DNA of 63,854 bases, taken from positions 1 through 63,854 of the forward strand of contig WQXN01000003.1 in NCBI GenBank assembly GCA_009784815.1, given 5' to 3'. Source of the stretch: Alphaproteobacteria bacterium. GTDB lineage: Bacteria; Pseudomonadota; Alphaproteobacteria; Rs-D84. This document shows, piece after piece, positions 27,405 to 44,421 of the stretch (position 1 is the first letter of the stretch; every line of letters starts with the position of its first letter). The position numbers and the translations under genes are program-made. The notes beneath the pieces were generated by a model. The model searched no databases. It was not told the origin of the DNA and saw only the letters and a program-made list of their open reading frames with translations.

Positions 27405-28259
27405 TTATCCTTTCACAATCCCGGCGAATTTTTCCTTAACCAAATCCTTCATAGTGAAAATCCCGCTTTTTCCCCGAATAAACTCCACTGCTTCTCCGGC
27501 TCCCGCTGCGAAATGCGTGCGTCCCAAGGACTCGTGTATGATTATTATGCGCTGCATACCGTCATCGAATGTTATTGTGTGCTTTCCAAAAACGCTTCCA
27601 AAGCGTCCCGATACTATCTGAATCTGACACGGCTTTATCTTGTCTTTTCCGTTGGTGTTTCCTTCCAACACTTCGGTCTTGCTCGTCATGCCCCCCATAA
27701 TTACATTGGCCATTTCATTGGCGGTACCGGAAGGGTTGTCCACTTTGTCTTTGTGATGTTCTTCTAAAATCTGCACATCGAAACCTCCGACTGCGTTCAC
27801 AAGCTTCGCGGCCACCTCAAGAATTGAATACGCAGCCTGCGTTCCTATGGAAAAGTTTCCTGCATATATAAGACCGACACCGGCGTCGTTTACGGTTTTG
27901 ACCACTTGCTCAAGCTTTTCTTTCTTCTTGAACCAACCGGTGGTACCGACTACTACCTGCTTTTTGAACTTTGCATAAAGATTTATATTTTCCATAAACG
28001 CATCCTCGGACGAGAAATCGACTATCGCCGCATAACGATTTTGGCACGCGGAATCATACGAATCTCTTTCGACATAAAGCGCGTTCTCAAGATATTTTAT
28101 AGACTGTTCCTGACCTGCGGACGCGGTATATTTTGGATCAAACCCATTTACATAGTACCCGTTTTTCTTGGCATATTCTGCAAACGCGCCGCCCATTCTT
28201 CCGGCAGCTCCAACCACTATAATTTCTTTATTAAGCTCTTGATTGTTAACATCCGTCAT
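27405..28259 (-). CDS. dapB: 4-hydroxy-tetrahydrodipicolinate reductase
   Basis: Reduces the dihydrodipicolinate precursor in lysine and diaminopimelate synthesis, so it feeds peptidoglycan. 284 residues: the dinucleotide-binding start (IIVVGAAGRMGGAFAEYAKK), VVGTTGWFKKKE, and the catalytic EEHHKDKVDNPSGTA are clear. Codon use is somewhat AT-richer than in adjacent genes. Its promoter contains a run of nine G between -35 and -10 (28296-28325). Confidence 0.93.
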   Translation of the reverse strand: MTDVNNQELNKEIIVVGAAGRMGGAFAEYAKKNGYYVNGFDPKYTASAGQEQSIKYLENALYVERDSYDSACQNRYAAIVDFSSEDAFMENINLYAKFKKQVVVGTTGWFKKKEKLEQVVKTVNDAGVGLIYAGNFSIGTQAAYSILEVAAKLVNAVGGFDVQILEEHHKDKVDNPSGTANEMANVIMGGMTSKTEVLEGNTNGKDKIKPCQIQIVSGRFGSVFGKHTITFDDGMQRIIIIHESLGRTHFAAGAGEAVEFIRGKSGIFTMKDLVKEKFAGIVKG

Positions 28260-28295: not shown

Positions 28296-28325
28296 AGTCT
28301 ACCCCCCCCCGCAACGTTTTGTCAA
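28296..28325 (-). promoter_or_regulatory. dapB promoter with a G9 tract in the spacer
   Basis: On the - strand, TTGACA (28325-28320) and TAGACT (28301-28296) are separated by 18 bases, of which the last nine are G. A homopolymer in this position can change spacer length by slippage. The box is followed by GGCC. A second promoter of the same design is at 43522-43548. Confidence 0.7.
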
Positions 28326-28330
28326 TCAAT

Positions 28331-28681
28331 TTATAAATAATTCTTAAAATGCTTAACGCGCCATCCGCTAACTACGATCACATCAAACCTAGCATTAAAC
28401 CCGCGCCCATTCCTTGCCATCCAAACTTCCGCCGCCCGTCGCAATCTAGTCCTCCCGGTCGGCGTCACCGCAAACAATCCTTCATTGACCGAGCGTCGAC
28501 TCTTGACCTCGACAAAAACTATAACATCGCCGCGCCGTGCGATTATGTCGATTTCGCTACATCCCAAGCCTGCGCCAGTCTGAAACCTTCTTTCTAAAAT
28601 CGAATATCCCTTTAGCCGCAACAACCCTACGGCCACCCGCTCTGCCCACAAACCCTTTTTATATCTCTTCAACCTATCCAT
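28331..28681 (-). CDS. yraN: UPF0102 (YraN) nuclease-fold protein
   Basis: 116 residues from the ATG at 28681, with GGAG five bases upstream. The restriction-endonuclease-like core is visible: GLGCSEIDIIARRGDVIVFV followed by EVKSR (Asp and Glu-x-Lys). KGLWAERVAVGLLRLKGY is the standard N-terminal helix. The cellular role is not settled. It ends near the G-tract promoter of dapB, so read-through into dapB is possible. Confidence 0.88.
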   Translation of the reverse strand: MDRLKRYKKGLWAERVAVGLLRLKGYSILERRFQTGAGLGCSEIDIIARRGDVIVFVEVKSRRSVNEGLFAVTPTGRTRLRRAAEVWMARNGRGFNARFDVIVVSGWRVKHFKNYL

Positions 28682-28691
28682 ATATATCTCC

Positions 28692-28873
28692 AATAAATAA
28701 TCTCAAAACCCATTAGTCGCATCGCGTTTTCGATGAATAATCGTCCAATACCAAGGAAAACGAACCCGCGCCTGGACTGTAATGCCTCCGCAAGGGTTCG
28801 TTTTCCGAAGCGTAGTGGATGATTAGGCGCGAAAACGAAATATGCGACTTATGGGTTTTGACCTTCTTTATTT
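28692..28873. repeat. Complete nested palindrome
   Basis: Outer arms: CAAAACCCATTAGTCGCAT with ATGCGACTTATGGGTTTTG. Middle: CGCGTTTTCG with GCGAAAACG. Inner: AATAATCGTCCAATACCAAG with CGAAGCGTAGTGGATGATTA. The apical stem GAAAACGAACCC pairs with GGGTTCGTTTTC; the loop region GCGCCTGGACTGTAATGCC is shared with the 43648 copy. Confidence 0.88.
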
Positions 28874-29741
28874 AGAAAGAATAAGGTCTCGACCTGAACC
28901 TATCGCGCGAATCCTCCCAATTCCTGATTTCATCTTCGCTATTAGCCGCTGGGTCAACCAATATAAGTTCGCCATACAAAGCCGTCATAAAAGGATCCGA
29001 AGGGTTATCTGACGATACCCACCTGTTGTTTCCCGAATTCGGCGGGCCGTATTTTTCCAACACCATCTGCCAAAACGCAAGTATCTTTTTGTCTCGCTGA
29101 TTTGCGAATTTCGGATCGTCTCCCGGAATAAGATCGACATCGTTGGAATAGTGAATCTTCCACACGACGTTTCCTGTGGCGTTGGAAGTAAAATACACGT
29201 TTATCTTTTCGCCGGTCGAAGGCCTCTCAAGCCTCATTTCTGACGGATACAGAAATCCGCGTTTTCGTGCGGCGGTATTTATGCACATTTCCAATTCTGC
29301 GGGCGCAAAAACCCGTTGCAATCGGCATTCGTAATCCAAATTGAACCGCCATTCTTTCGGGATGGAATATATTATGGAACTGCGCCTCGCTGGGGAATAA
29401 ATTGCCGCCTCGCGGAAGAATAATATGCGAACGGACTCGAAAGTCATTCCGATCATTATGCCGGATATGTCGAAATCGTTTACGTTTATAAATGACGAGT
29501 TTGCATTAAGAGCAAACCTTGTGGGCAAAGCTTCGAAATCGAAGGCGCGGTCTTGCGTTGAAATATCTCCGGTCAATAAATCATCGGCGGGCGCGCCGAA
29601 AAAGGACGGGGCGGCAAACAGCCCGGCATCTCCAAGCCACGGGTCGCTTCCATCGTCCCAAAATTCTTCCGCGCGCGGCGCCGCGGCGATAAAAACCACC
29701 ATAACAAATATGCTAAAAAACTTCACCAATCCCTTACCCAT
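28872..29741 (-). CDS. Secreted protein of unknown function
   Basis: 289 residues. A signal peptide (MGKGLVKFFSIFVMVVFIAAAP) precedes a mature part without membrane segments. NVNDFDISGIMIGMTFESVR and a later FWQMVLEKYGPPN look like periplasmic 'PepSY/outer-membrane-assembly lipoprotein' type modules, but I cannot assign a family. Two cysteines (YECRLQ, LEMCINT) could pair. It lies between two nested palindromes, beside the VirB8-like genes, so a role in the same envelope machine is possible. Confidence 0.6.
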   Translation of the reverse strand: MGKGLVKFFSIFVMVVFIAAAPRAEEFWDDGSDPWLGDAGLFAAPSFFGAPADDLLTGDISTQDRAFDFEALPTRFALNANSSFINVNDFDISGIMIGMTFESVRILFFREAAIYSPARRSSIIYSIPKEWRFNLDYECRLQRVFAPAELEMCINTAARKRGFLYPSEMRLERPSTGEKINVYFTSNATGNVVWKIHYSNDVDLIPGDDPKFANQRDKKILAFWQMVLEKYGPPNSGNNRWVSSDNPSDPFMTALYGELILVDPAANSEDEIRNWEDSRDRFRSRPYSF

Positions 29742-29782
29742 AATCCTATACTATCTTTTTTACCTTTCCCTTTGCAACCCAT

Positions 29783-29865
29783 AATCATCTCAAAAAATCC
29801 CATCTCGGTCGCAACGCCAACTAATAATAAATCCCAAAAACCATTCGTCGCATCGCGTTTTCGAT
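29783..29865. repeat. Truncated left halves of nested palindromes
   Basis: AATCATCTCAAAAAATCCC then ATCTCGGTCGCAACGCCAA is cut at CCAA and followed by CTAATAATAAATCCC, the start of another left arm (CAAAAACCATTCGTCGCAT, CGCGTTTTCGATGAATAA). No right arms are present for either. Confidence 0.75.
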
Positions 29866-29867
29866 GA

Positions 29868-30034
29868 ATAATAATCTCAAAAAATCCCATCTCGGTCGCG
29901 TTTGCGAGGATAGATCGTCCAATACCAAGGAAAACGAACCCGCGCGTGTACGTCCAAGTACATAAGGGTTCGTTTTCCGAAGCGTAGTGGACGATCTAGA
30001 CCGCAAACGAAAAACCGAGATTGGATTTTTTGTC
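29868..30034. repeat. Complete nested palindrome
   Basis: Outer: CAAAAAATCCCATCTCGGT with ACCGAGATTGGATTTTTTG. Middle: CGCGTTTGCGA with CCGCAAACGA. Inner: TAGATCGTCCAATACCAAG with CGAAGCGTAGTGGACGATCTA. The apical stem is GAAAACGAACCC/GGGTTCGTTTTC with a GTACGTCCAAGTAC hairpin loop. This is the cleanest copy of the family. Confidence 0.9.
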
Positions 30035-30644
30035 ATCTCCTCACCCTAAAATCGCTGACCCTGAATTTGAATATGCGGGCGGCGTCACTACTTCTCCGCA
30101 ACTCTCTCTCCCAATTCTCGATCAACCCCGGCTCATACCTGACTTTTACATAAGCGACGCGAACTTCGGACCGCATACTATCGGGCCCGTCCCAAGTATC
30201 CAACCTGAATTCTACGCGGTAATATTCACCTTCCTGCGCAACGCTTATTACATGAACTGCGCGCATCCCCCGGCGGCTTGCTATGTCCTGAACCTCGGGC
30301 AATACTTCTTCGCGCCACACCCGTTCACCGCCCGAATCGGACATGAATCCTATGAACGAAGCCCGCCCTCCTGCCATACGCTCGGCGGCGTCCTGATTGT
30401 CTGGGATTACGCGATAAGCCTCAACGAACCAGCGCCGTATCAGCCAATCGATCATAGCATCATCGGAAATGTCGTCCAAAGGAACTATATCGGGCCGTCC
30501 CTCGGGATAGTTTGCGACCTGAAATACTACCGGCTCGACATCGGCCTTTGTTGAATAGGAATAAACAAAAGCAGCCAGCAGCATCGCGCCGATCGCCAAC
30601 GCGATTATGAATATATATATAAAAAACCTCACCAACCCGCTCAT
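30033..30644 (-). CDS. VirB8-like inner-membrane protein 1
   Basis: 203 residues from the ATG at 30644 behind TTTGGAG. A single N-terminal membrane helix (FFIYIFIIALAIGAMLLAAF) is followed by a periplasmic domain of about 150 residues with helix-then-strand layout (WLIRRWFVEAYRVIPD, YYRVEFRLDTWDG, VRVAYVKVRYEPG). That is the NTF2-like pattern of VirB8/TrbF, which bridges the inner-membrane complex of type IV secretion systems. The match is by architecture, not strong sequence identity. It is in line with a second such gene upstream at 30712. Confidence 0.55.
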   Translation of the reverse strand: MSGLVRFFIYIFIIALAIGAMLLAAFVYSYSTKADVEPVVFQVANYPEGRPDIVPLDDISDDAMIDWLIRRWFVEAYRVIPDNQDAAERMAGGRASFIGFMSDSGGERVWREEVLPEVQDIASRRGMRAVHVISVAQEGEYYRVEFRLDTWDGPDSMRSEVRVAYVKVRYEPGLIENWERELRRSSDAARIFKFRVSDFRVRR

Positions 30645-30669
30645 TCTCTTCAACTCCAAATTCTAATAG

Positions 30670-30713
30670 TCCCAAAAAATCCTAGAAATATCGCGTTTGC
30701 AGGATTTTTTGTC
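30670..30713. terminator. Terminator, nearly empty form
   Basis: CAAAAAATCCT pairs with AGGATTTTTTG. The loop still contains ATCGCGTTTGC, the middle segment of the nested element, so this may be a deletion product of a filled copy. Confidence 0.8.
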
Positions 30714-31458
30714 ATTCCGACTCCTTATAAAAGTATCTAAACTCACTAACGAACTGCCCCATGCTTCGGGGATATATATTATTGTTCGTGCTTACTCGAA
30801 CAAACGCAACTACCGGCCTTCGGCCTGCGGGAACCAACCGCGATCCTCCCTGGACGGAATATTCGGCGACTTCGAAATCAAGCCTCCACAAAGTCCCGCT
30901 TCCGGTAAATTCCGGGGCGGACAAAGGCGCGGCATATATTATTGCCTCTCCGGTCCTGCTGTCGACAGGAATGGACTGCGCCCTCCGTTCGTCGAACATC
31001 CGGCGCCAAGCGACAACTTCGCGGTTCATGAATCCGGCGAATATTTCGCTTGTGGTCATACAGCACAACTCGCCCTGAATATTTTCTTCAACCATCCCGC
31101 ATTTGTTAAGAACGCAAGTGCGCCAAAAAGCCTCGTTTGCGGCATGAAGATGAGATACGGAAAACCAGCGCCTAACAAATTCCCGCGCCACGAATTCCTG
31201 AGCGACATACTGCATCATGTTTCCGCTTTTTTGATCGTCCATTACGCGCCATACGCCGTCGTCCTTTGGCAGAATTACAACCATTGGATAAGACGATTTG
31301 TAAGACTTCGCAAAATATACGGCACCGGCCAGCGCGGCGGCCAGCGCGGCCAATCCAAGCAGCGCGATCGCGAACACGCGCGACAATTCTATATATTTAT
31401 TTTCCGGAGCGGTGGCAATATCATACCTCTGCGGATACTCCGGGCTTTCCCAAGCCAT
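30712..31458 (-). CDS. VirB8-like inner-membrane protein 2
   Basis: 248 residues from the ATG at 31458 behind GGGAG. A cytoplasmic N-terminus is followed by one membrane helix (FAIALLGLAALAAALAGAVY) and a periplasmic domain. VAREFVRRWFSVSHLHAANE, LWRLDFEVAEYSVQG and PVVAFVRVSTNNNIYP fit a VirB8/TrbF-like domain. Three to four cysteines in the middle (RTCVLNKCGM, LCCMTT) are unusual for VirB8. Two adjacent VirB8-like genes may form a heteromeric periplasmic platform. A terminator lies between them. Confidence 0.55.
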   Translation of the reverse strand: MAWESPEYPQRYDIATAPENKYIELSRVFAIALLGLAALAAALAGAVYFAKSYKSSYPMVVILPKDDGVWRVMDDQKSGNMMQYVAQEFVAREFVRRWFSVSHLHAANEAFWRTCVLNKCGMVEENIQGELCCMTTSEIFAGFMNREVVAWRRMFDERRAQSIPVDSRTGEAIIYAAPLSAPEFTGSGTLWRLDFEVAEYSVQGGSRLVPAGRRPVVAFVRVSTNNNIYPRSMGQFVSEFRYFYKESE

Positions 31459-31473
31459 TTTTTCTCCCTCCAA

Positions 31474-31636
31474 AATAACTCAAAAAATGCTAGGAAATCA
31501 GAGCCTATGAAAAATCATTCAGAACCAAGAAAACCCGACCGGAACGTGGACGCCTAAGTCCCTGTAGGGAGGGCTTTCGAAGGTAATCAATGATTTTTCA
31601 TGGCGATTGAAATTTCCAGCATTTTTTGTCCTTTAT
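31474..31636. repeat. Complete nested palindrome, second sequence type
   Basis: Outer CAAAAAATGCTAGGAAAT with ATTTCCAGCATTTTTTG. Next level CCTATGAAAAATCATT with AATGATTTTTCATGG. The internal loop has CAGAACCAAG on the left and CGAAGGTAATC on the right, so CCAAG and CGAAG are kept while the rest varies. The apical TGGACGCCTAAGTCC hairpin matches the copy at the window start. Confidence 0.85.
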
Positions 31637-31779
31637 CCTTGGAACACTCTCAAGCACGCGCACGGGGATATTTTCATCTCGTCCCGTCCTGGCCCTATTC
31701 CGACCGGATCTTTTTCATAAATCGTTCCGCATCCTGCAACCAAAGCACCCAACAAAAGCACTAATAGAAATCTTTTCAT
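31633..31779 (-). CDS. Small lipoprotein, VirB7-like by context
   Basis: 48 residues from the ATG at 31779. MKRFLLVLLLGALVAGC is a lipoprotein signal with lipobox LVAGC; the mature part is 32 residues with two further cysteines (PCACLRVF). Small lipoproteins of this size act as VirB7 in type IV secretion systems, and this one lies between VirB8-like and VirD4-like genes. Sequence alone does not prove the assignment. Its stop codon lies inside the end of a nested palindrome. Confidence 0.55.
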   Translation of the reverse strand: MKRFLLVLLLGALVAGCGTIYEKDPVGIGPGRDEMKISPCACLRVFQG

Positions 31780-31839
31780 TTTGATTACTCCTTGACCCTT
31801 TCGTCCATTATAGAAATTCCACACAACCCGGTCAATTTA

Positions 31840-32000
31840 AAAAACTCAAAAAATGCTAGGAAATCCATAGCCTATGAAAAATCGTTCAGCGCCAAGAAAA
31901 AACCGACCCGAGTAGGCCTTATAGGTCGCCGCGACGGTCGGTTTCTTGCCGGCGATCAATGATTTTTCATGGCGATTGAAATTTCCAGCATTTTTTGTCA
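31840..32000. repeat. Complete nested palindrome, second sequence type
   Basis: Outer arms CAAAAAATGCTAGGAAAT and ATTTCCAGCATTTTTTG are identical to the copy 370 bases away. The inner left arm ends TTCAGCGCCAAG and the apical stem is AAACCGACC/GGTCGGTTT with GGCCTTATAGGTCGCC. The right end TTTTTTGTCATAAT runs into a CATAAT -10-like box in front of the VirD4-like gene. Confidence 0.85.
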
Positions 32001-32010
32001 TAATAGCACC

Positions 32011-34161
32011 ATGGCGAAGCTAAGTCTATTTTCAGCGTCCGGCAAAGGCAAAGGCCTGGGTATTTTCTCAAGCAAGAAATACGACGAGCACAAGCGCGCC
32101 CCAATGGCGCAAATGTTCTGGCGCGGCCGCTTTACGGTTACTATGCTTCTTCTTTTATTCGGAATGCTTGCGGCAAGCTTTGCGGCGGAACACGTGCTTC
32201 GTTACGGCTGGACTCCTGCGACGCAAGCCTGGCTAAGAATCTACATGGACAATTTCATAGGCTCGTTCGGTCTAAGCGTGTTTGCTGAATTCCCAAGCTG
32301 GGCTACGCGCACATTGCTAAGAACGGACATCTACACAATATTTCCTGTGATCTCGTTCATAGCGTTTTTCGCTTTGCATAACAATGCGTTTATCTCTGAA
32401 TTTAATCCTTATGACGGAGATGCGCTATCCAAAAAATCCAGTCGCAAAGCCACCGAAGCGGACGTGAAAAAAATGGGCACCAAGGGCGGCAGTCTGTTCG
32501 AAGGCTTTATGATGGTGCTGGGCAAATTCAAAGGCAAGTTTGTAAAGCTGAACGAAACCTTGTCCGTGCTTTGCGTCGCGCCTCCTGGAACTGGTAAAAC
32601 TACCGGTATCGTTATGCCGACTCTGTTTGAATGCGACACGGTTTCTATGATAGTGAACGATCCAAAGCCTGAAATCGCGAAATTAACAAGCGGCTATCGT
32701 TCGACTATCGGCCCTGTGTTTATAATAGACTGGGCTGGCCAGGACGATCCGTCCCGGGGAATATACTACCCGTCGTGGAATCCTCTTTCTCCGTCGCACA
32801 TCCCAACCGACATGTCCGAGCGCGAGCTCTACGTAGACACGATCTGCAACGTCATGATCGGCGAAACCTCCAAAGAAATGCACTGGACTCTGACCGGCCG
32901 CGCGGCGCTAAGCGGATTTATACACTTCATGGTGTCCAAGATCGAACGTGCCCGCGCCAACGACTGGTTCCTTGCCAGAATCCGAAGCCAAACTTTTGAC
33001 GCCGAGGACGCCGACCTTCTGGCCACCTACTACGAGCCTATGTTCGACCCAAACTCTCAAGCGGCGCTGAACGCGCTCCAAGCGGGGCAAAAAATGACCG
33101 AAGCGAATTACGTCCCGATCGGAACCTGGGCCTCGATCCCGAAACAGTGGCTGGGAAAAGAAGCCTCTCTTTCGATGATTTTTGACTGGATCAACACGTC
33201 CCAGCTGGAAGTCGCCGCCAAAATGGAGGCGCGAAGGAAACAAGGCGACCAAATGGTTGCGTTGGAAGACAGCATGAAGGAAGTGTTTCAAATTGCCGTG
33301 AACGAGGCTCGTCAGTTTAACTACGCGCACCGCGCGGTGCTGGAACTTACGCAGATCGCTAACACTCCTGACAAGGAACGTGGTTCTATCCTGTCTACGG
33401 TCTTCTCAAGCCTTGGCATATTCAGGAACTCTGCGGTGCGTGCAAGAACCAGTCACTCGGACTTCAACTTCAGGGATCTGCGCGGCATGGTGGACCCGAA
33501 GGACGGCAAAATGAAGCCCGTTACGGTCTACCTTTCGGTTAATCAGGTGGACGCTCTTGCGCTTAATCCGATCACTGGAATATTTGTGGAATTGATGTCG
33601 AACTTTCTTATTTCGAATCCGCCTGAAACTCCGACGGCGGAAGGCAAGCTGGGTCCGACTCCGGTGCTGTTTGTCTTGGACGAATTTCCGAAAATGGTGA
33701 AACTGAACGCGGTCGTCGAAGGTCCTTCGGTCGGCCGCGGCCAGCAGGTTTCGTACCTTATGATCGGCCAGGATTTGGAACAGATTGCGGCTGGCTACAG
33801 CCGCGAAGCGATGGAAACTTTGATGTCCACTACTGCGGCGAAAATCGTGCTTCGCCAGAACAGCATGAAGACGGCGGAATTCTTCTCGCACATGATGGGC
33901 GACAAGGTCGAACTGGACGACGAAGGCAAAGCGAAAACCCCCTCTCCTCTCTATTCTCCGATGGACATAATAACGCTGGATCCGAAAAAGGAAATTATCA
34001 TAGTGCAGGGCCACGCGAACAGACCTATCGAAGCGGATCTTGCCTATTGGTTTAACGACGACGGTCTTAAGAAAAAACAGGCAGTCCCGGCCAGCAGCGC
34101 GCTTCCCGAATTTCTTATCGACAGTCACCGTCGCGCGATCGGCCTCCCCCCATTAAAATGA
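32011..34161 (+). CDS. VirD4/TraG-type coupling ATPase
   Basis: 716 residues from the ATG at 32011; a longer frame to 31969 lies in the palindrome. The coupling protein brings substrates to a type IV secretion channel. Two to three N-terminal membrane helices (VTMLLLLFGMLAASFA, IFPVISFIAFFAL), Walker A VAPPGTGKTTGIVMPTL (about residue 190), MIVNDPKPEIAKLTSGYR and Walker B PVLFVLDEFPKMVKL are clear. The ATG follows CATAAT by six bases without a Shine-Dalgarno, so the message may be leaderless. No relaxase is nearby. Confidence 0.88.
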   Translation: MAKLSLFSASGKGKGLGIFSSKKYDEHKRAPMAQMFWRGRFTVTMLLLLFGMLAASFAAEHVLRYGWTPATQAWLRIYMDNFIGSFGLSVFAEFPSWATRTLLRTDIYTIFPVISFIAFFALHNNAFISEFNPYDGDALSKKSSRKATEADVKKMGTKGGSLFEGFMMVLGKFKGKFVKLNETLSVLCVAPPGTGKTTGIVMPTLFECDTVSMIVNDPKPEIAKLTSGYRSTIGPVFIIDWAGQDDPSRGIYYPSWNPLSPSHIPTDMSERELYVDTICNVMIGETSKEMHWTLTGRAALSGFIHFMVSKIERARANDWFLARIRSQTFDAEDADLLATYYEPMFDPNSQAALNALQAGQKMTEANYVPIGTWASIPKQWLGKEASLSMIFDWINTSQLEVAAKMEARRKQGDQMVALEDSMKEVFQIAVNEARQFNYAHRAVLELTQIANTPDKERGSILSTVFSSLGIFRNSAVRARTSHSDFNFRDLRGMVDPKDGKMKPVTVYLSVNQVDALALNPITGIFVELMSNFLISNPPETPTAEGKLGPTPVLFVLDEFPKMVKLNAVVEGPSVGRGQQVSYLMIGQDLEQIAAGYSREAMETLMSTTAAKIVLRQNSMKTAEFFSHMMGDKVELDDEGKAKTPSPLYSPMDIITLDPKKEIIIVQGHANRPIEADLAYWFNDDGLKKKQAVPASSALPEFLIDSHRRAIGLPPLK

Positions 34162-34206
34162 TAATAATTTTATCCATCCGTAAGGAACACTCCGCCCTTC
34201 CCACGC

Positions 34207-34387
34207 ACCAATAAACAATCCCAAAAACCATTCGGTGTGTCGCGACGTCGAGAAAAAATCGCACAATACCAAGAAAGACCGACTGCCATAGGCCTTTATG
34301 GCTGCCATGGCGTGTCGGTCTTTCGAAGCGTAGTGGGTGATTTTATCCGACGGACGAAAAACACACCAAATGGTTTTTGTCCTTATT
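34207..34387. repeat. Complete nested palindrome, near-copy of 18154-18329
   Basis: The same outer arms, inner element and GGCCTTTATGGCTGCC loop as the dnaB-side copy, with only a few substitutions (for example CGACTGCC for CGACCGCC). It is preceded by CACCAATAAACAATCCC. Near-identity over 170 bases between sites 16 kb apart indicates recent copying or conversion. Confidence 0.9.
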
Positions 34388-34390
34388 CTG

Positions 34391-35455
34391 TTACCCTAAA
34401 AACACTCCCAAACCTCTGGCGGCTTTAAGGAAAGGATCATCCTCGGATACTACGTCATACGTGACGGTCATATTGGAAACGTTGGGATCGTTAGTGGTGA
34501 TTCCGGCGTCATAAAGCTCGTCTATTCCGACGGTGGTTATCTCGCTGGTTTCGTCGCGTCGAACCATGACCATGGTCTCTCCGCGATCCAAAGCGTCCAA
34601 AGCTGCGGTTGCGAACTCGGCGGCCAACAATCGGTCCGAAGCTACGCTTATGCCGCCGCGCTGAAAGTAATCGGCGTTGCAAGCCCGTCCCTGGAATCCG
34701 GCGCCTTCCAGCGCGGCGGCTATCTCTTCAACCTTAAGATCGCTTCCCTCGGCTACGACTATTATGCCGAAACTGCGCCCTGTGCCTTTTACGAACGACA
34801 CAAGATCTCTCAGCTGCACGTCTATCTCGGGCAATATTATTGCGTCGGCGCCTGCGGCCATTCCTCCGCGCAAAGCCAAATGCCCCGAGTTACGTCCCAT
34901 AGCCTTCACAACGAACCACCGGCGATGGCTGCGCGCGGATTGTGCTATGCCGTCTATATACAAGGACAATTGATTGACTGCCGTATTGAACCCGACGGTG
35001 TTTTTGGTCATGGGAACATCCATGTCTATCGTCTTGGGAATATATACGGTCTGCATACCGGCGAACAGCTCGGGCGCGGAATGAAGCCACGACACGGACC
35101 CGTTTCCTCCGATCATTACAACGCAATCGGCCTTGATTTTTGCAATGCCTTCCTTTAACTTGAAGTACACAGGGGTAGTCTTGCTTCCGTCCCAAGTCAT
35201 TTCCTTCCTAGCGCAAACGTCTTTGTACACGACGCTTCCTATGAACGATCCGGCCATATTGATCGCGGAATAAGGAAATGTTTCGCGGTTAAGCGGAATA
35301 TTTTCTCCGGTAATGAATCCGTCCGTGCCGTTCATTATGCCGACAAGCTCCCAGTTCCGCACCTCGCAGGCGCGAATTAAACTGAACAGCGTCGAATTAA
35401 GACCGGAACAATCTCCTCCGGTAGTAAGCACCGCCACCCTTTTTCTTTTACCCAT
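34391..35455 (-). CDS. pfkA: 6-phosphofructokinase with altered nucleotide-site residues
   Basis: Phosphorylates fructose 6-phosphate in glycolysis. 354 residues: AVLTTGGDCSGLNSTLFSL, KTIDMDVPMTKNTVGFNTAV and MGRNSGHLALRGGMAAGAD are family motifs. The phosphate-donor loop reads IGGNGSVSW, with Asn where ATP-type enzymes have Asp (GGDGS) and PPi-type enzymes have GGDD. The following motif has Lys (PKTID), which is typical of PPi-type or mixed-type enzymes. The phosphoryl donor therefore cannot be inferred. AAGGAG precedes the ATG. Confidence 0.85.
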   Translation of the reverse strand: MGKRKRVAVLTTGGDCSGLNSTLFSLIRACEVRNWELVGIMNGTDGFITGENIPLNRETFPYSAINMAGSFIGSVVYKDVCARKEMTWDGSKTTPVYFKLKEGIAKIKADCVVMIGGNGSVSWLHSAPELFAGMQTVYIPKTIDMDVPMTKNTVGFNTAVNQLSLYIDGIAQSARSHRRWFVVKAMGRNSGHLALRGGMAAGADAIILPEIDVQLRDLVSFVKGTGRSFGIIVVAEGSDLKVEEIAAALEGAGFQGRACNADYFQRGGISVASDRLLAAEFATAALDALDRGETMVMVRRDETSEITTVGIDELYDAGITTNDPNVSNMTVTYDVVSEDDPFLKAARGLGVFLG

Positions 35456-35513
35456 TTCTATTTCTCCTTAAATCGTATCATTTTCCATCCTACCACATTT
35501 CACTTGACAAAAC

Positions 35514-35543
35514 GTCATATTTTTGTGAAACTGTGGCTATAAT
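35514..35543 (+). promoter_or_regulatory. Consensus promoter of the LysM gene
   Basis: TTGACA (35514-35519) and TATAAT (35538-35543) are 18 bases apart, in a divergent region shared with pfkA. Confidence 0.75.
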
Positions 35544-35567
35544 TCAAACGAATCGAAGGGACCGATC

Positions 35568-36707
35568 ATGACCTCAACCAATAATAACAACAACGGCAAA
35601 CAGTTTAACGCGCGCCTTCTTCAAACTCGCCTTGCCGCGATGAAGGCCGAAAACAAACAACCCGCCGCCCAGACCGCTGCTCCGAAACCGGAAGCGAAAG
35701 ATACAAAGGACGCCAAGCCGGAAACGAAAACGGCTGCTCCGGCGCAACCTAAAGAAATTCGCGTGAACCCGCTTACGCAGGCTTTGCGCAAAGCGCATAT
35801 CAATCCTAAATCCTGGCGCAACATTTTGGCCTACTGGTTTCCGATAGTCATAGTTGTCGGCCTTGCTGCTTTTGCGATTTATCATTTCAGCGGCTGCCAG
35901 CGCAAACCGTCTGACAACGTGACCGTTATGAACGAACAACAGCTTCCCGAATTCGACATGGTCCGCACTCAGCCGGGCGGCGGCCTTGTTGTCGCTGGAA
36001 GATTTATCCCTGGCGCGGTCGTCCAGATTGAAGTTAACAAGAAAGTTATCGGTCGTGAAACCTGCAGCAGGAAAGGCGAATTCGCATTCAGCACTTCGTC
36101 CAAGTTCAAGCCGGGCAACTACATAGTAAGACTTCTCTCGGAAGATGGCAATCTCGCCAGCAAAGACTCGGTGTTCGTATACATCGCGTCTGAAAAGGAC
36201 GGAGCAAGCCTGTCCCTGCTAATGACGGAAAGCGGATCGAAATTCCTGCAAGCTCCGAAATCCAGCGACAACGCGCTAAGCATCACCAAGATCGACTACT
36301 TCGCTCGCGGCCGCCTGCGCATCCAGGGTCAGGGCCTCCCAAGGCTGAACGTCGGCGCGACTTTCAACGGTCAACCGATCGGCGCCGGCAAAGTTGCGGA
36401 CAACAGAACCTTTGGTTTCGACGCGACCTTCAACGACTTCCAGGCGAACAAGAACTACACCATCGAAATTAAAATGACGGACGATCTTGGGAACGTTGTG
36501 GACGTGGTAAGCCACAGCTTCAATATGCCTGAAAGCAAACCGGGCGAAGCGGCCTACTACACGGTCAAAAAAGGCGACAACCTCTGGGTCATCTCTCGCC
36601 GTCATTACGGACGCGGAATCCTGTACACGCAGATCTTTGACGCGAACAGGAAAAAGATCAAAGATCCTCACTGGATCTTCCCGAAACAGATCTTCCTAAT
36701 CCCGTAA
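35568..36707 (+). CDS. Membrane-anchored LysM-domain protein
   Basis: 379 residues. An N-terminal Ala/Pro/Lys-rich cytoplasmic stretch (PKPEAKDTKDAKPETKTAAP) precedes one membrane helix (AYWFPIVIVVGLAAFAIYHF). A periplasmic part with Ig-like repeats (VVAGRFIPGAVVQIEVNKKV) follows, and a C-terminal LysM domain (YYTVKKGDNLWVISRRHYGR). It probably binds peptidoglycan and links it to the inner membrane. Proteins of this layout are common in alphaproteobacteria. A good ribosome-binding site (GAAGGG) lies upstream. Confidence 0.82.
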   Translation: MTSTNNNNNGKQFNARLLQTRLAAMKAENKQPAAQTAAPKPEAKDTKDAKPETKTAAPAQPKEIRVNPLTQALRKAHINPKSWRNILAYWFPIVIVVGLAAFAIYHFSGCQRKPSDNVTVMNEQQLPEFDMVRTQPGGGLVVAGRFIPGAVVQIEVNKKVIGRETCSRKGEFAFSTSSKFKPGNYIVRLLSEDGNLASKDSVFVYIASEKDGASLSLLMTESGSKFLQAPKSSDNALSITKIDYFARGRLRIQGQGLPRLNVGATFNGQPIGAGKVADNRTFGFDATFNDFQANKNYTIEIKMTDDLGNVVDVVSHSFNMPESKPGEAAYYTVKKGDNLWVISRRHYGRGILYTQIFDANRKKIKDPHWIFPKQIFLIP

Positions 36708-36724
36708 TGGATCAAGCACAAAAA

Positions 36725-36762
36725 ATAAGACCCTGCGGCTTGACCGCGGGGTCTTGTCATTT
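36725..36762 (+). terminator. Terminator of the LysM gene
   Basis: AAGACCCTGCGG-CTTGA-CCGCGGGGTCTTG is followed by TCATTTT. Confidence 0.8.
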
Positions 36763-36791
36763 TATAATCTCCTCCACACGAAGGAACTTTA

Positions 36792-37691
36792 ATGATATAC
36801 GCACTAGGTCACAAAAATCCGGATACTGATTCAATAATAGCGGCGATAGCCCAAGCTCACCGCATCGGCGCAACCCCCGCGGCTCAAAGCGACCCGAACC
36901 CCGAAACCCAATTTGTGCTGGATAAATTCGGCCTTAATGCGCCGAAAATCCTAACCTCGGTCGCGGGAAAAAATATATTCATAGTGGATACGAACGACCC
37001 GGCGCAACTACCGGACGACATAGACCAGGCGAACATAATAGGAATAGTCGACCACCACCAATTGGTCGGGAAATTAAAAACTCCCGGCCCGATCGAGGTT
37101 ACAATAAGACCCTACGGCTGCACCTGCACCATCATCGCGAAAAGATTCATGCGAAGAAGAATCGATATTCCTCAAAACCTTGCCGGCGCTATGCTTTGCG
37201 CGATACTGTCTGATACCGTTATGTTCAAATCTCCGACTTCGACGAAATCCGACCGCGAAATGGCGGAAATGCTGGCCCTGATCGCGGACCTCGACATAAA
37301 CGAAATAGGCTTGGAAATAATGAAAATTAAATCGGATATATCAAACGAAACGTCAAACTCTCTGCTTAACCGCGACATCAAGGAATTCGACATCAACGGC
37401 AAACGCTTCGCCATCGCCCAGGTCGAGCTGGTAAATGGAAAAATGATTGAACCGTTTGTCACGGAACTGCGTCACGAAATGGCCGAATTGAAACACGGCA
37501 AAAAACTGGACGGAGTCATAATGATAATAACGGACATAATGAAGGACGGCTCGACCCTAATACTCGAGACGAACGACAACAAAAAAATTCAATCCCTTTT
37601 CAAGGCGCTTACCAAAGACGAATCTGCCTTCGTCCCCGGCCTTTTATCCCGGAAAAAACAAGTTATTCCCGTATTGACGGCCAATTTATAA
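36792..37691 (+). CDS. ppaC: Manganese-dependent (family II) inorganic pyrophosphatase
   Basis: Hydrolyses pyrophosphate to phosphate. 299 residues of the DHH superfamily: YALGHKNPDTDSIIAAIA, IVDTND, GIVDHHQL and the C-terminal SRKKQVIP substrate-binding motif are all present. CBS insertions are absent, so this is the constitutive type. Family II enzymes are typical of Firmicutes and less common in alphaproteobacteria. With the unusual phosphofructokinase next door, it suggests special handling of pyrophosphate. Confidence 0.93.
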   Translation: MIYALGHKNPDTDSIIAAIAQAHRIGATPAAQSDPNPETQFVLDKFGLNAPKILTSVAGKNIFIVDTNDPAQLPDDIDQANIIGIVDHHQLVGKLKTPGPIEVTIRPYGCTCTIIAKRFMRRRIDIPQNLAGAMLCAILSDTVMFKSPTSTKSDREMAEMLALIADLDINEIGLEIMKIKSDISNETSNSLLNRDIKEFDINGKRFAIAQVELVNGKMIEPFVTELRHEMAELKHGKKLDGVIMIITDIMKDGSTLILETNDNKKIQSLFKALTKDESAFVPGLLSRKKQVIPVLTANL

Positions 37692-37696
37692 AAAAT

Positions 37697-37729
37697 TGTC
37701 ATTCCCCGGCTTGACCGGGGAATCTCGGC
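37697..37729. repeat. GTCATTCCCCGG-type interspersed palindrome
   Basis: GTCATTCCCCGGCTTGACCGG then GGAATCTCGGC; the CCCCGG/CCGGGG arms form a hairpin just before frr. Confidence 0.65.
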
Positions 37730-37757
37730 GCATTATAATTCCGAAAAAGGAGAACAA

Positions 37758-38318
37758 ATGGAATACCAAGCGTTACAAACGGAAGCCTCGACAAAAACTG
37801 CGGCTACTATAGAAGTGCTGAAAACCAACTTCGCGGGCCTCAGAACCGGCCGCGCAAGCGTAACCCTGCTTGACCCGATCCGCGTTGAAGCTTACGGCGG
37901 CATGATGCCTCTGTCCCAGCTTGCGAACATATCTACTCCCGAAGCGCAAACGATTTCTATTTCGGTATGGGACATGGACGTGGTGTCCAAAGTTGAAAAG
38001 GCGATCCTTGAAAGCAAACTTGGCCTGAATCCTCAAACCAGCGGCACTTCGATCAGACTGAATCTTCCTCCGCTAACCGAAGAACGCCGCAAAGAACTGA
38101 CCAAGGTCGCGGGCACTTACGCCGAAGATGCAAAAATAGCGATCCGCAACATAAGGCAGGAACTGTTCCAAAAAATAAAGAAAGCGGAAGAAGACAAGCA
38201 GATTTCGGAAGATGATAAACATAGGTTTCAGGAAGACCTTCAGAAAATCTTCGACGCAAAAACTGCGGAAGTCGGAACCTTGCTGACCGGCAAGGAAAAA
38301 GACATCATGAGCATATAA
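37758..38318 (+). CDS. frr: Ribosome-recycling factor
   Basis: Splits post-termination ribosomes with EF-G. 186 residues, the usual length. NFAGLRTGRASVTLLDPIRV followed by EAYG, then LGLNPQTSGTSIRLNLPPLT and the terminal DAKTAEVGTLLTGKEKDIMS are clear family features. AAAAAGGAG precedes the ATG. It is the first gene of the frr-uppS-cdsA-rseP-bamA operon, whose order is conserved across many proteobacteria. Confidence 0.97.
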   Translation: MEYQALQTEASTKTAATIEVLKTNFAGLRTGRASVTLLDPIRVEAYGGMMPLSQLANISTPEAQTISISVWDMDVVSKVEKAILESKLGLNPQTSGTSIRLNLPPLTEERRKELTKVAGTYAEDAKIAIRNIRQELFQKIKKAEEDKQISEDDKHRFQEDLQKIFDAKTAEVGTLLTGKEKDIMSI

Positions 38319-38321
38319 CCT

Positions 38322-39074
38322 ATGTCTCTCCTCTCAAAAATCTTTAAATCAAAAACTGTCGGGGAAATCGAAAATTCGACAGGCAATCATTCCATACCCG
38401 GCCACGTGGCGATCATGATGGACGGCAACGGCCGATGGGCGACCAAACGCGGCCTACCCAGAACCGCGGGCCACGCGAACGCTGCCGGGAAATTGGAAAA
38501 TTTGATGACCTATCTTCTTGACCGTGGCGTGCATACGGTTTCTCTATACGCCTTTTCGACCGAGAATTGGAAAAGATCGAAACAAGAAGTCGACTTCCTG
38601 ATGAACCTTATGACCAAGGAACTTAAACGCGGCAAAAAAAGATTTATGGAAATGAACGTCCGAATAAAAGCGATCGGCCGCCGCGACAACATTCCGACGA
38701 AACTCCTTGACGCGATCGAAGACTTGGAACTTGCGACCTTCGGCAACACAAGGGGAACTTTATGCCTTGCGATTGACTACGGCGGCCAGGACGAAATTGT
38801 GCGCGCGGCGCAGGCTGCGATCGACGAAGGCGTCGAAAACCTTACTAAGGAAGCCTTTAACTCGTACCTCGACTCGGGCGAGCTGACACCAATAGATTTA
38901 GTGATCAGAACCAGCGGCGAGTTTCGCTTATCGAACTTCATGCTCTGGCAAATGGCCTATTCCGAGTTTGCGTTTATTCCGGAAATGTGGCCCGACATGA
39001 CGCCCAAAATTTTGGAAAAAATATTAAAGGACTACTCAACCCGCAACCGCCGGTTCGGAGGAACTAAAAAATGA
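38322..39074 (+). CDS. uppS: Isoprenyl (undecaprenyl) diphosphate synthase
   Basis: Builds the C55 lipid carrier for cell-wall precursors. 250 residues: VAIMMDGNGRWATKRGLPRT with the catalytic Asp, then SLYAFSTENWKRSKQEVDFL and PIDLVIRTSGEFRLSNFMLW. It starts three bases after frr and overlaps cdsA by four bases, so it is translated as part of the operon. A few residues at the N-terminus resemble a charged extension. Confidence 0.97.
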   Translation: MSLLSKIFKSKTVGEIENSTGNHSIPGHVAIMMDGNGRWATKRGLPRTAGHANAAGKLENLMTYLLDRGVHTVSLYAFSTENWKRSKQEVDFLMNLMTKELKRGKKRFMEMNVRIKAIGRRDNIPTKLLDAIEDLELATFGNTRGTLCLAIDYGGQDEIVRAAQAAIDEGVENLTKEAFNSYLDSGELTPIDLVIRTSGEFRLSNFMLWQMAYSEFAFIPEMWPDMTPKILEKILKDYSTRNRRFGGTKK

Positions 39075-39685
39075 ATAAAAACACCGCCGTCCGCATACTC
39101 TCCTCGTTCGGCATCCTTGCCGCGATCGCAGCTGCGGCAATCATCGGCCCCTTGGGAATTTTGGTCCTTTCATCAATAATAATAATACTCATGTCGTTCG
39201 AATGGCTAAGAATGTCTCGCGGCGCAACGCGAATTCTCGGCGTATTGTGGCTCCTTATAATGCTCGCCAGCGCGATCGCGCTATCAACTAAGCTCTGGGT
39301 GATGCTGCTCTTGCTGATAACCATAAGCGCAACCGACATCGGCGCCTGGTTTTTCGGCGGCAGAATAAAGTCATCTAAACTATGGCCGACTGTGACCGCG
39401 AACAAAACATGGGGCGGCCACATATCCGGCATGATCTGCGGAACTGCCGCGTGCGTTCTGCTGGGCTTTTTTATGATGGGCGAATTTCTTCCTCAAATGA
39501 TCTGGATCGGCATGGGCGTCTCGACTCTGTCGCAATACGGCGATCTGACGGAAAGTTACATGAAAAGAAAATTCGGCGTCAAAGACTCGTCCAACCTGAT
39601 CCCCGGCCACGGTGGATTTTTGGACCGCTTCGACGGCTGGATCTACGCGCTTCCGCTGATGGCCCTAATATCAAAGGTTTTATAA
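39071..39685 (+). CDS. cdsA: Phosphatidate cytidylyltransferase
   Basis: Makes CDP-diacylglycerol, the precursor of membrane phospholipids. 204 residues, shorter than E. coli CdsA (285), with fewer predicted helices. The signature near the C-terminus is intact: QYGDLTESYMKRKFGVKDSS followed by NLIPGHGGFLDRFDGW. It overlaps uppS by four bases and is followed by rseP after one base. Confidence 0.93.
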   Translation: MNKNTAVRILSSFGILAAIAAAAIIGPLGILVLSSIIIILMSFEWLRMSRGATRILGVLWLLIMLASAIALSTKLWVMLLLLITISATDIGAWFFGGRIKSSKLWPTVTANKTWGGHISGMICGTAACVLLGFFMMGEFLPQMIWIGMGVSTLSQYGDLTESYMKRKFGVKDSSNLIPGHGGFLDRFDGWIYALPLMALISKVL

Positions 39686-39686
39686 A

Positions 39687-40700
39687 ATGACAAGCTTCAT
39701 AGGTTTGATAATAGTCCTGGGCCTGGTGGTCCTAGTCCACGAACTGGGCCATTTCCTAGCCGCAAGAAAATTCGGGGTGAAAGTTGTGGCGTTTTCGATC
39801 GGCTTCGGTCTTGGCAAACCGCTTCTAAAATGGAAGGACAAGCGGGGCACGGAATGGCGTCTAGGCTGGCTGCCCCTTGGCGGCTACGTCGAATTATACG
39901 AGGATAAGGATAACAAAGGCAAAAAAGGTTCTCTATCCGCCGCGCCTAATTGGAAGAAAGCGATCATCATGGTCTCGGGCGTTGCGCTGAATTTTTTACT
40001 GGCCTGGGTTATATTCCTATTTCTATTTGCGGCTAAACCGGAACAAATAATCAAACCTACCATAGGAACTGTGGTCGAAAATTCTTTGGCCGAACGTGCG
40101 GGCGTGCAGCCTGGCTGGACGGTCCGCAGCATATCCGGCAACCCGATAAACGAATGGTCTGATCTGATAAAAACTAAAACCTACGCCGGGAATAAAATCG
40201 TAAGAATCGATTTTGATAACGGTGAAACGGTAAGGCTTCTTGCGGACAAGCCCTGGGGAATCATCCCGCAAATTCCGGAAAATCCCGAATTCAAAAAACG
40301 TACGCCGCTTGGAGTGATCTCGCGCGCTACGACCGAAACTTATCAGCAGTCGAAATTACTGTTCATAGTGATAAGACAATTGATAACTGGCGACCGCGAC
40401 AGCAAACAACTTGGCAGCTTTATAATGATAGCTGAAATGGCGGGCATGGCGCTAAACGCGGGAATATTCGCTCTGCTTGCCATGATCGCAATGCTAAGTA
40501 TAAATTTGGGGGTCATAAACCTTCTTCCAATACCGGCTCTGGACGGCGGGCATCTTTTGATAATACTGATCGAAAGCGTAACGCGAAGAAAGCTGAACGA
40601 AAAAGCGAAAAACTACGTGATCCTTGCGGGCTGGGCCGTCATAATCGCACTAATGGCGCTTGCCCTAAAAAACGATATAATGAGAGTCCTCGGCCTATAA
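39687..40700 (+). CDS. rseP: Site-2 intramembrane metalloprotease RseP
   Basis: Cleaves membrane-bound anti-sigma factors and signal-peptide remnants. 337 residues with LVHELGHFLAARKFGVKV containing the zinc HExxH, one PDZ domain (VVENSLAERAGVQPGWTVRS) rather than two, and the second metal site in LLPIPALDGGHLL. Multiple membrane helices are visible. It sits between cdsA and bamA as usual. Confidence 0.96.
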   Translation: MTSFIGLIIVLGLVVLVHELGHFLAARKFGVKVVAFSIGFGLGKPLLKWKDKRGTEWRLGWLPLGGYVELYEDKDNKGKKGSLSAAPNWKKAIIMVSGVALNFLLAWVIFLFLFAAKPEQIIKPTIGTVVENSLAERAGVQPGWTVRSISGNPINEWSDLIKTKTYAGNKIVRIDFDNGETVRLLADKPWGIIPQIPENPEFKKRTPLGVISRATTETYQQSKLLFIVIRQLITGDRDSKQLGSFIMIAEMAGMALNAGIFALLAMIAMLSINLGVINLLPIPALDGGHLLIILIESVTRRKLNEKAKNYVILAGWAVIIALMALALKNDIMRVLGL

Positions 40701-40701
40701 A

Positions 40702-42969
40702 ATGAGTTTTCGTTACTTTTACCTTTTACCCTTTACCCTTTTGCTTCTCGCGCCCTTGGCTCGGGCCGAACCCATCCGCAGCATCGAAGTGGTAGGCAAC
40801 CGCCGCATCGACAGTGAATCGGTAATGCTGATGATCCCGGCGAAACCTGGTGACAACGCATCACCGGAACGCCTGAATCAAATTACCAAAACTCTTCAGC
40901 GCAGCGGTTATTTTGAACAAGTCTCGACCAGCGTGTCGAACGGCGTGCTTCGCGTGAACATATCGGAAACTCCCGTGGTGGGAAGAATAACGGTTGAAGG
41001 CAACGACGCGATCAGCACCGAAGACCTGAAAAAAGAAATCCGCCTGACCGAACGCGCTCCGTTCTCGGCCGCTTTGATCGGCGCGGACACGCAAAGAATA
41101 CTGACGCTTTACCAGCGCCAGGGCTTCTTCAATACGCGGGTGGAACCGCAAAGAATAAACACGGACGACCACCGCGTGGACGTGGTGTTCCAAATCACCG
41201 AAGGCCACAAGACAAGAATCCGCAGCATCAGCTTTGAAGGCAACCGCGCCTTCAGCAGCCGCACATTGCGCGGCGCTATAATTTCTCAGGAACACGCCTG
41301 GTGGCGCTTCATGGCCTCGTTCGACAACTTCGACGCGGACCGTATCGAATTTGATATGCAGCAACTTCGTCAGTTTTATATGAAAAACGGTTTCGCGGAC
41401 GTAAGCGTCTCGCGCGTCTACAGCCGGCTAAGCGCGGACCGTCGCGACTACTCTGTAAGATTCAAAATAGTCGAAGGCCCAAGATATAGATTCGGTGCGA
41501 TAGACATAGAAAATCCGTTCCCGGATGTGGATATGCAGGACCTAAGGCGCGCCGTCCAGTTCCGCGCGGGCGACATATATAACATAGAAAAAGTCGAACA
41601 AACTACGGCAAAACTTCGTCAGGTCGTGGCCGAACGCGGCTACGCGTTTATCAACGTGGACATAGAACCGAAAAAGAACGAAGATTCGTTAACGATCGAC
41701 CTAAGGTTTAACATCCGCCCGGCGCAAAGAATGTACCTGAACGACATAATCATCTCGGGCAACTCGCGCACGTTCGACTTCGTTATCAACCGTCACCTGA
41801 TGATGCGTCCGAAAGACCCGTTTTCCCTACAATCGATCGAGCAGTCGCGCCAAAGACTGATGCGCACGGGCTTTTTCAAATCGGTGGATATGTCCCCTAC
41901 AAGGATCGAAGATACAAACCTAATGAACCTGAACGTGAACGTCCAGGAACAGCCGACGGGCGAATTATCTGGCGGAGTCGGCTGGTCGAACATAAACGGA
42001 TTTATGGTGGACGCCGGAATTACCGAGCGGAACTTCATGGGCCGCGGCCAGATCGTGTCTATCCGCGCTCAAGTTGCGCAATATCAGGACATGGTCTCGT
42101 TCAGCTTTACGGAACCGTACCTGTTCAAGCGCGCCCTCTCGGGAGGGTTCGACGTTAATTACGTTGTGTACGATTACTCGAAACTTGGCTCGTTCGGATA
42201 TAACAGAGACACGTTCGGAGTAGCAGGGCGCCTAGGCTGGCTTCTTACGGACAACCTTTCTCAACAGTTAAGGCTTTCGGCTACCTGGGATACGATAAGC
42301 GATCTTCTTGCGAACCGCCGTGATACTAATCTGTACACGGCCTCGACTTCGCTAAGATACTCGAAACTGGACACGGACTTCACGCAGAACACCCACACGG
42401 GGGTCATAGGATCGCTAAGCCTGGCCTACACCGGCTTCGGCGGCACGGAAACCTTTTTGCGTACGGACTCGTCGCTTACCGGTATGGTGAACTTTTTGGA
42501 AAACAGATGGCAGCTAAGATCGACGATCGAAGCCGGATTCATCCAGCCGATTCAGGATGATTATATTTCAAGACCGTACAGATACTTCCTTGGCGGCGAA
42601 AGTTTGCGGGGCTTTGATAACGCTGGTATCGGATCAAGAAACTGGATGAACAGGAACTACGCCTACGGCGGCTTGTGGAAAATGAACGGCACGACCCAGC
42701 TGAACTTTCCCGTGTTTATCCCGGACGAATACCAGGTGAAAGGATTTCTGTTTTTGGATTACGGAATCTTGGGCAAACCTCCCAAAAGCGATTTAACCTT
42801 TTTCGGACAACCCAATCTTGTGGACGAAAGCCTAAGGGCTTCTTACGGATTCGGAATCTATTGGAACACTCCGATGGGCCCGATGAATTTTTCATGGGGC
42901 TACCCGATCCTAAGAAAAGACTACGACCGCGAGCGTAGATTCCTTCTCTCCTTCGAAACCCAATTCTAA
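40702..42969 (+). CDS. bamA: Outer-membrane assembly factor BamA
   Basis: Core of the BAM complex that folds outer-membrane proteins. 755 residues: signal peptide (LLPFTLLLLAPLARA), five POTRA-type repeats (IRSIEVVGNRRIDSESVML is the first) and a C-terminal 16-strand barrel ending in the terminal aromatic signature FETQF. It is separated from rseP by one base. The DNA encoding the signal sequence is a pyrimidine-rich run (TTTTACCTTTTACCC repeated) resembling tracts seen in several intergenic regions. Confidence 0.96.
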   Translation: MSFRYFYLLPFTLLLLAPLARAEPIRSIEVVGNRRIDSESVMLMIPAKPGDNASPERLNQITKTLQRSGYFEQVSTSVSNGVLRVNISETPVVGRITVEGNDAISTEDLKKEIRLTERAPFSAALIGADTQRILTLYQRQGFFNTRVEPQRINTDDHRVDVVFQITEGHKTRIRSISFEGNRAFSSRTLRGAIISQEHAWWRFMASFDNFDADRIEFDMQQLRQFYMKNGFADVSVSRVYSRLSADRRDYSVRFKIVEGPRYRFGAIDIENPFPDVDMQDLRRAVQFRAGDIYNIEKVEQTTAKLRQVVAERGYAFINVDIEPKKNEDSLTIDLRFNIRPAQRMYLNDIIISGNSRTFDFVINRHLMMRPKDPFSLQSIEQSRQRLMRTGFFKSVDMSPTRIEDTNLMNLNVNVQEQPTGELSGGVGWSNINGFMVDAGITERNFMGRGQIVSIRAQVAQYQDMVSFSFTEPYLFKRALSGGFDVNYVVYDYSKLGSFGYNRDTFGVAGRLGWLLTDNLSQQLRLSATWDTISDLLANRRDTNLYTASTSLRYSKLDTDFTQNTHTGVIGSLSLAYTGFGGTETFLRTDSSLTGMVNFLENRWQLRSTIEAGFIQPIQDDYISRPYRYFLGGESLRGFDNAGIGSRNWMNRNYAYGGLWKMNGTTQLNFPVFIPDEYQVKGFLFLDYGILGKPPKSDLTFFGQPNLVDESLRASYGFGIYWNTPMGPMNFSWGYPILRKDYDRERRFLLSFETQF

Positions 42970-43007
42970 AAAACAACGTTGCCTGCTTCCATAGGCGATC
43001 CATTTAT

Positions 43008-43490
43008 TTACCTTTTCGCAACCCTTGCCATTTCCAACGCCTCAACCAAAGCATTTTGAAAATTTGGACAATCACGTATACTGTCAGTAACTCCGGATAT
43101 CTGAATCGCCAGGCTGATATCTTTATAATACCAACTGTCTCTGGAAACCCATTTTGATTCTACCAATTCTCCCGAATCTATATGCAAAGCCACCAACTGG
43201 CAAACTCCATATCCCATTTCCAACTTTGTTTTCGGAGCCTCGTTATAAATCTTGCATCCTCTCCCAAATCTATCGTATTCTTCGGTATACTTTGATCTGA
43301 CTTCTATCAATTTCCAATCTGGAAATTTTTTATTAAATACTCCGTCTGTGCGCGGCACACAATTGGGATAATGCAACTTGGGCCCCACAGGAAAATCCAA
43401 GTTAAAGCTACATGTCTCGAAATTATAAGCCATATAATCGACACCACCCAATCCGATCTTCCCATAATTGTATCGTTTTTCAATAATCAT
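43008..43490 (-). CDS. Unknown soluble protein behind a G-tract promoter
   Basis: 160 residues, not recognised. There is no signal peptide; several cysteines (ETCSFNL, PNCVPR, RGCKIYN, GVCQLV, RDCPNF) are spread along it. The sequence is rather hydrophilic, AT-richer than neighbouring genes, and lies at the end of bamA in the opposite direction. Its promoter has nine G in the spacer, so expression may vary. AAAAGGTG precedes the ATG. Confidence 0.5.
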   Translation of the reverse strand: MIIEKRYNYGKIGLGGVDYMAYNFETCSFNLDFPVGPKLHYPNCVPRTDGVFNKKFPDWKLIEVRSKYTEEYDRFGRGCKIYNEAPKTKLEMGYGVCQLVALHIDSGELVESKWVSRDSWYYKDISLAIQISGVTDSIRDCPNFQNALVEALEMARVAKR

Positions 43491-43521
43491 GCTTACACCT
43501 TTTTCTAGTTTACCTGGGCCA

Positions 43522-43548
43522 ATTCTACCCCCCCCCTCATTTTGTCAA
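43522..43548 (-). promoter_or_regulatory. Promoter with a G9 tract in the spacer
   Basis: On the - strand, TTGACA (43548-43543) and TAGAAT (43527-43522) are 15 bases apart, with nine consecutive G directly before the -10 box and TGGCCC after it. This is the same design as the dapB promoter, but with a shorter (suboptimal) spacer. Confidence 0.7.
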
Positions 43549-44392: not shown

Positions 44393-44421
44393 TTGACAGG
44401 CATAAAGATAAAGTCTAAAAT
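44393..44421 (+). promoter_or_regulatory. mraZ promoter
   Basis: TTGACA (44393-44398) and TAAAAT (44416-44421) are 17 bases apart; the ATG begins seven bases after the -10 box, so mraZ is probably leaderless. Confidence 0.7.

Follow-up and report, generated by a model that had tools for sequence, protein, structure and literature searches.

Promoters upstream of dapB and of a second gene in the window

The window (the whole stretch of 63,854 nucleotides analysed here) carries dapB and a further gene, called here the 43008 gene, each preceded by a promoter with nine consecutive G in its spacer (Table 1). On the minus strand the dapB promoter reads TTGACA-AAACGTTGC-G9-TAGACT (28325-28296), with a spacer of 18 bp, and that of the 43008 gene reads TTGACA-AAATGA-G9-TAGAAT (43548-43522), with a spacer of 15 bp. 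In both the tract adjoins the -10 box, as the original prediction had described. The start codons are at 28259 and 43490, respectively. On the plus strand the tracts appear as C9 runs (28302-28310 and 43528-43536), and they are indeed the only long C/G runs of the window: besides two C6 runs, no other run exceeds 6, and the expectation for G/C runs of at least 9 in the window is 0.37. The pentamer TGGCC, also pointed out after both promoters, does occur at both, yet its distance from the -10 box differs by one base between them (TAGAC-TGGCC, TAGAAT-TGGCC), and it was not found after the -10 box at the other G-tract promoter sites of the genome. We therefore rejected it as a common element, and its presence at the two window promoters looks like a coincidence.

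Table 1. Positions of the promoter elements and genes in the window, and loci of a secreted-protein gene family in genome G050
Feature	Position	Strand	Basis
-35 box TTGACA, dapB promoter	28320..28325	-	pattern search
G9 tract within 18-bp spacer, adjoining -10 box, dapB promoter	28302..28310	-	
-10 box TAGACT, dapB promoter	28296..28301	-	pattern search
dapB, dihydrodipicolinate reductase, 284 aa	27405..28259	-	Pfam PF01113 (DapB_N) and PF05173 (DapB_C)
-35 box TTGACA, 43008-gene promoter	43543..43548	-	pattern search
G9 tract within 15-bp spacer, adjoining -10 box, 43008-gene promoter	43528..43536	-	
-10 box TAGAAT, 43008-gene promoter	43522..43527	-	pattern search
43008 gene, 160-aa protein	43008..43490	-	no Pfam, NCBIfam or PHROG match
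G050 family loci	L290-L295, L285 (contigs C35, C4, C41, C3, C17)		

The protein encoded by the 43008 gene is distantly paralogous (24% over 145 aa, E 8e-10) to the product of another G9-promoter gene of the same genome, at locus L016 on contig C8. Two G9 promoters lie about 660 nt apart at this locus, one of them driving the paralogue. Elsewhere in the window, a TTGACA-17-TAAAAT promoter without G tract (44393-44421, plus strand) ends only 6 nt before mraZ, which suggests that the mraZ transcript is near-leaderless.

A genome-wide set of poly-G promoters

Genome-wide counts were obtained from pattern searches and from stretches around tracts. The genome search suggested by the original prediction, run with the pattern TTGACA-N-G6+-TANNNT, gave 21 exact sites in this genome (828 kb, 12 contigs, 87% complete) and 0 with a reversed-pattern control. 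Relaxed -35 boxes (TTGACT, TTGAAA, TTGATA) raise the set to about 25-26 promoters, which are typically located 25-50 nt 5' of an ATG, mostly ahead of single genes. All 51 tracts of at least eight G were enumerated in the genome, and about half of them lie in the spacers of TTGACA-type promoters. The window pair represents 2 of the 21 exact sites and 2 of these 51 tracts; to regard them as two special promoters was too narrow, since they are members of a genome-wide architecture. Among GTDB contigs, at least 117 matching sites were found across phyla, with tract lengths of 9-14 among the matches listed. A literature search on nine-G motifs in alphaproteobacterial promoters found nothing relevant.

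Most genes downstream of the tracts are orphans, and most of those scanned have no Pfam match. Besides dapB, those with a match include RpiB-like, radical SAM, formyltransferase, histidine phosphatase and glycosyltransferase genes. A common function was rejected, as the genes mostly lack a Pfam match and few are shared between genomes: only dapB and one pair of orthologues of genomes G038 and G042 are common to different genomes, with a few within-genome paralogues besides. The dapB homologue of G048, a genome of another family, is about 30% identical and has TTGACA-AAATGTCGC-G9-TAGAAG upstream; the dapB gene of G003, of the same genus as the window, has an ordinary 16-bp promoter without G run. 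Two families could share the dapB G9 promoter by chance, since a tract is found at several percent of the genes of G048. In the genome of the window itself, a DAP-dehydrogenase-like gene (L018; 61.6 bits with NCBIfam TIGR01921, below the curated cut-off, and E 1e-12 with solved DAP dehydrogenases) has a G8 promoter with a 17-bp spacer. Thus dapB does not stand alone. A conserved G tract for ddh was rejected, the G002 homologue following its upstream gene with no tract in between.

Spacer length, tract length and a putative promoter switch

The spacers of the G-tract promoters avoid 16-17 bp. Such spacers occur in 6 of 80 G-tract promoters versus 64 of 83 other TTGACA-TAWAAT promoters in genomes G000, G048 and G050 (p=8e-21), the two sets having been found with different -10 patterns. 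When only the same -10 class is considered, the proportion is 1/12 against 64/83 (p=7e-6), and it becomes 1/17 once this class is widened to tracts located at the -35 end or on the other strand. G-tract spacers cluster at 15 or 18/19 bp, 18 bp being the commonest, and this preference persists when the tract is at the -35 end or on the opposite strand; length, not position, therefore matters. Outside the tract, G048 spacers have 6 or 9-10 nt, seldom 7-8 nt, so that the geometry itself avoids 16-17 bp at G9. In the two orthologues of G038 and G042, which are 71% identical, G9 is combined with N6 and with N10, respectively, which gives spacers of 15 and 19 bp. Across phyla, poly-G promoters are again mainly off 16-17 bp (28 of 117 have such a spacer among the GTDB matches listed).

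Differences in tract length were observed between genomes and between copies, in relatives and among G050 paralogues rather than at the two window sites. Poly-G tracts in relatives have lengths of 8-17, and in sister genomes those of comparable promoters range from 8 to 12. In G050, which belongs to the same order, a family of roughly 40 secreted-protein genes has a poly-G tract just 3' of the ATG (Table 1). Among four members with near-identical upstream sequences, the three G9 copies stop after 10 aa and the G8 copy is open for 181 aa, through the signal peptide; in two related genes the frame after a G10 tract stays open, over 246 and 263 aa. From its sequences, this family looks like a large phase-variable surface repertoire. 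The G050 genes at L056 and L296 each combine a tract at the -35 end of the spacer in their promoter with a second tract directly behind the start codon. Glycosyltransferase-like frames of G001 are broken at G10 tracts. In the genome of the window, G9 tracts are the exact points at which a GNAT-like frame (L045) and one of 297 aa (L049), on contigs C4 and C5, are interrupted; the labels GNAT and glycosyltransferase come from motifs seen by eye, not from a profile search. Translational contingency loci that are switched off would be expected to look like L045 and L049. MutS was found in 48 of the 54 genomes searched, including G048, G050 and G042, so that a general loss of mismatch repair was rejected as the cause; it was not found in the assembly of the window, which is 87% complete.

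Transcriptional phase variation by poly-G slippage, raised by the original prediction, is in our judgement the probable explanation and, given the avoidance of 16-17 bp, the best supported. The architecture, its number, the spacer bias and the tract-length differences between genomes and paralogues are direct observations; we infer that the two window tracts would slip as well, with an effect on transcription. In these sigma70-type promoters, with a pure poly-G tract inside the -35/-10 spacer, slipped-strand mispairing would add or remove one G, making the spacer 1 bp longer or shorter and shifting promoter strength. At the usual G9 the spacer would be just off its optimum, on one of two sides. 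Promoters with 18/19 bp, such as that of dapB, would then be raised by loss of a G and lowered by a gain, and 15-bp promoters, such as that of the 43008 gene, would be raised by a gain and lowered by a loss. The outcome would be a mixed population, with the level of each gene high in some cells and low in others, irrespective of the other genes. The suggestion that a change of length could benefit both promoters agrees, as far as geometry goes, with the marked scarcity of 16-17 bp spacers, since from 15 or 18/19 bp at G9 such changes move the spacer toward or away from the 17-bp optimum; the change in strength is presumed.

A more tentative proposal, which we put forward without favouring it, is that the non-G part of the spacer may be selected so that G9, the mutational rest length, sets the promoters just off optimum, with low expression as the default and rare high cells arising by opposite slips in the two classes. 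The frame family of G050 follows the same rule: it is shut at G9, and opening takes -1 in one subtype and, apparently, +1 in others.

Poly-G promoters of this type are known from other bacteria. In Treponema pallidum, tp0126 (an OmpW homologue) has a poly-G between -35 and -10 and is transcribed best with a 17-bp spacer, and in Neisseria meningitidis the length of the spacer poly-G of porA sets spacing and expression (PMC7864442). Here, too, the poly-G lies between -35 and -10, and the tracts in promoter spacers are pure homopolymers of at least 8. However, the tp0126 kind concerns a handful of outer-membrane genes, whereas the present set comprises about 25 promoters in 0.83 Mb, including those of biosynthetic genes, in two spacer classes; porA is a single locus, without the fixed G9 directly before the -10 box found here across many genes. 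The poly-G of T. pallidum tprL is mostly 9 long (PMC7864442), and Campylobacter tracts have 9 in 53% and 10 in 26% of cases (PMC6321876). The Campylobacter phasome is similar in its many pure poly-G tracts in a small genome with a modal length of 9, but about 80% of its tracts are in reading frames, whereas about half are in promoter spacers here. The best reading of these sequences would be a switch like those of porA and tp0126, extended over the whole genome and falling into two spacer classes that flank 17 bp.

If this is true, an uncultured alphaproteobacterium (gut) with a reduced genome would set dozens of genes by random spacer slips, not by regulators, with cell-wall precursor synthesis among them. 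The spacer statistic would provide a simple means of recognising transcriptional phase variation in genome scans, where phasome surveys based on reading frames may under-call it, and one could test directly why 9 is the length at which poly-G tracts settle.

Run lengths, the adjoining TA and alternative explanations

In the loci fetched around tracts, G-run lengths of the genome are sharply bimodal (G5 92, G6 4, G7 1, G8 8, G9 39, G10 4), the low-end counts being under-sampled because the loci were fetched for their tracts. The trough at 6-7 and the peak at 9 are nevertheless conspicuous, chance giving 3.6 exact G9 runs in the whole genome, and slippage-born repeats should show such a distribution. 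G9 makes up 39 of the 51 tracts of at least eight G, a uniformity that counts against slippage; interrupted or one-mismatch versions are rare, which counts for slippage-born repeats. TA directly follows 37 of the 39 exact-G9 tracts, including 14 of the 16 coding tracts of at least 9, on either strand, and it follows about 5% of the G runs of 3-5 outside such promoters. It is less dominant in G001 and G050; for G048 and G042/G038 no rate is claimed, part of this material having been fetched with a pattern that already required TA. Slippage gives no account of the TA after coding tracts, which counts against it, as does the presence of some tracts in genes that should require steady expression (ThyX, thymidylate kinase-like, dapB). 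The TA after G9 leaves some weight to a recognition site or to mutational drive.

G9TA could be the fixed recognition site of a DNA-binding regulator acting on these promoters, the tract being no switch. This would suit a tract length near-invariant at 9, TA next to the run both within promoters and outside, the near absence of one-mismatch variants and the G9 promoter kept on dapB in two families. However, the tract is found at either spacer end and on either strand, with spacers varying by 3-4 bp, and therefore offers no fixed geometry for such a site; similar promoters of sister genomes have tracts of 8-12, and there is no dyad symmetry. We consider this reading unlikely. MerR-type activated promoters (19-20 bp spacer, dyad operator) were rejected, the spacers being of 15 or 18/19 bp and G9 having no dyad.

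It is also rather improbable that the promoters are static, with poly-G (A-like, undertwisted) tuning their strength and shifting the optimum from 17 to about 18 bp. G runs distort DNA, and 18 bp is the commonest spacer, but both the 15-bp class, present in several genomes and in both families, and the gap at 16-17 bp are left unaccounted for. Accumulation of G9TA through mutation or a molecular drive (a DNA-uptake-like word, for instance), with promoters as just one of the places that tolerate it, appears very improbable. G9TA does occur in coding sequence and on both strands, its abundance is lineage-specific, and exact matches are many where near matches are few. In a comparison with DNA uptake sequences, which are over-represented throughout a genome on both strands, the word is over-represented yet rare and concentrated in promoters. 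Against a drive, more than half of its copies in this genome are at set distances from TTGACA, and with about 40 per 0.8 Mb it is much sparser than known uptake sequences. An assembly or sequencing artefact can practically be dismissed: the genomes with names are metagenome draft assemblies and errors are common in long homopolymers, but the same architecture recurs in independent assemblies and many phyla, with the tract fixed in position relative to the promoter boxes.

Within coding sequence, G9 followed by TA is found on either strand at L005, L033, L036, L040, L080, L083, L087 and L089. It is read there as Gly-Gly-Gly or Pro-Pro, and the genes concerned include one that is thymidylate-kinase-like and one for a ThyX homologue. 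We rejected the insertion of a G9TA unit of 11 bp, since the ThyX homologue of G013 aligns gap-free at the tract and there is thus no insertion there. Five viral contigs (L224-L228) also carry TTGACAAA-G9+-TANNNT sites, with tracts of 9-12.
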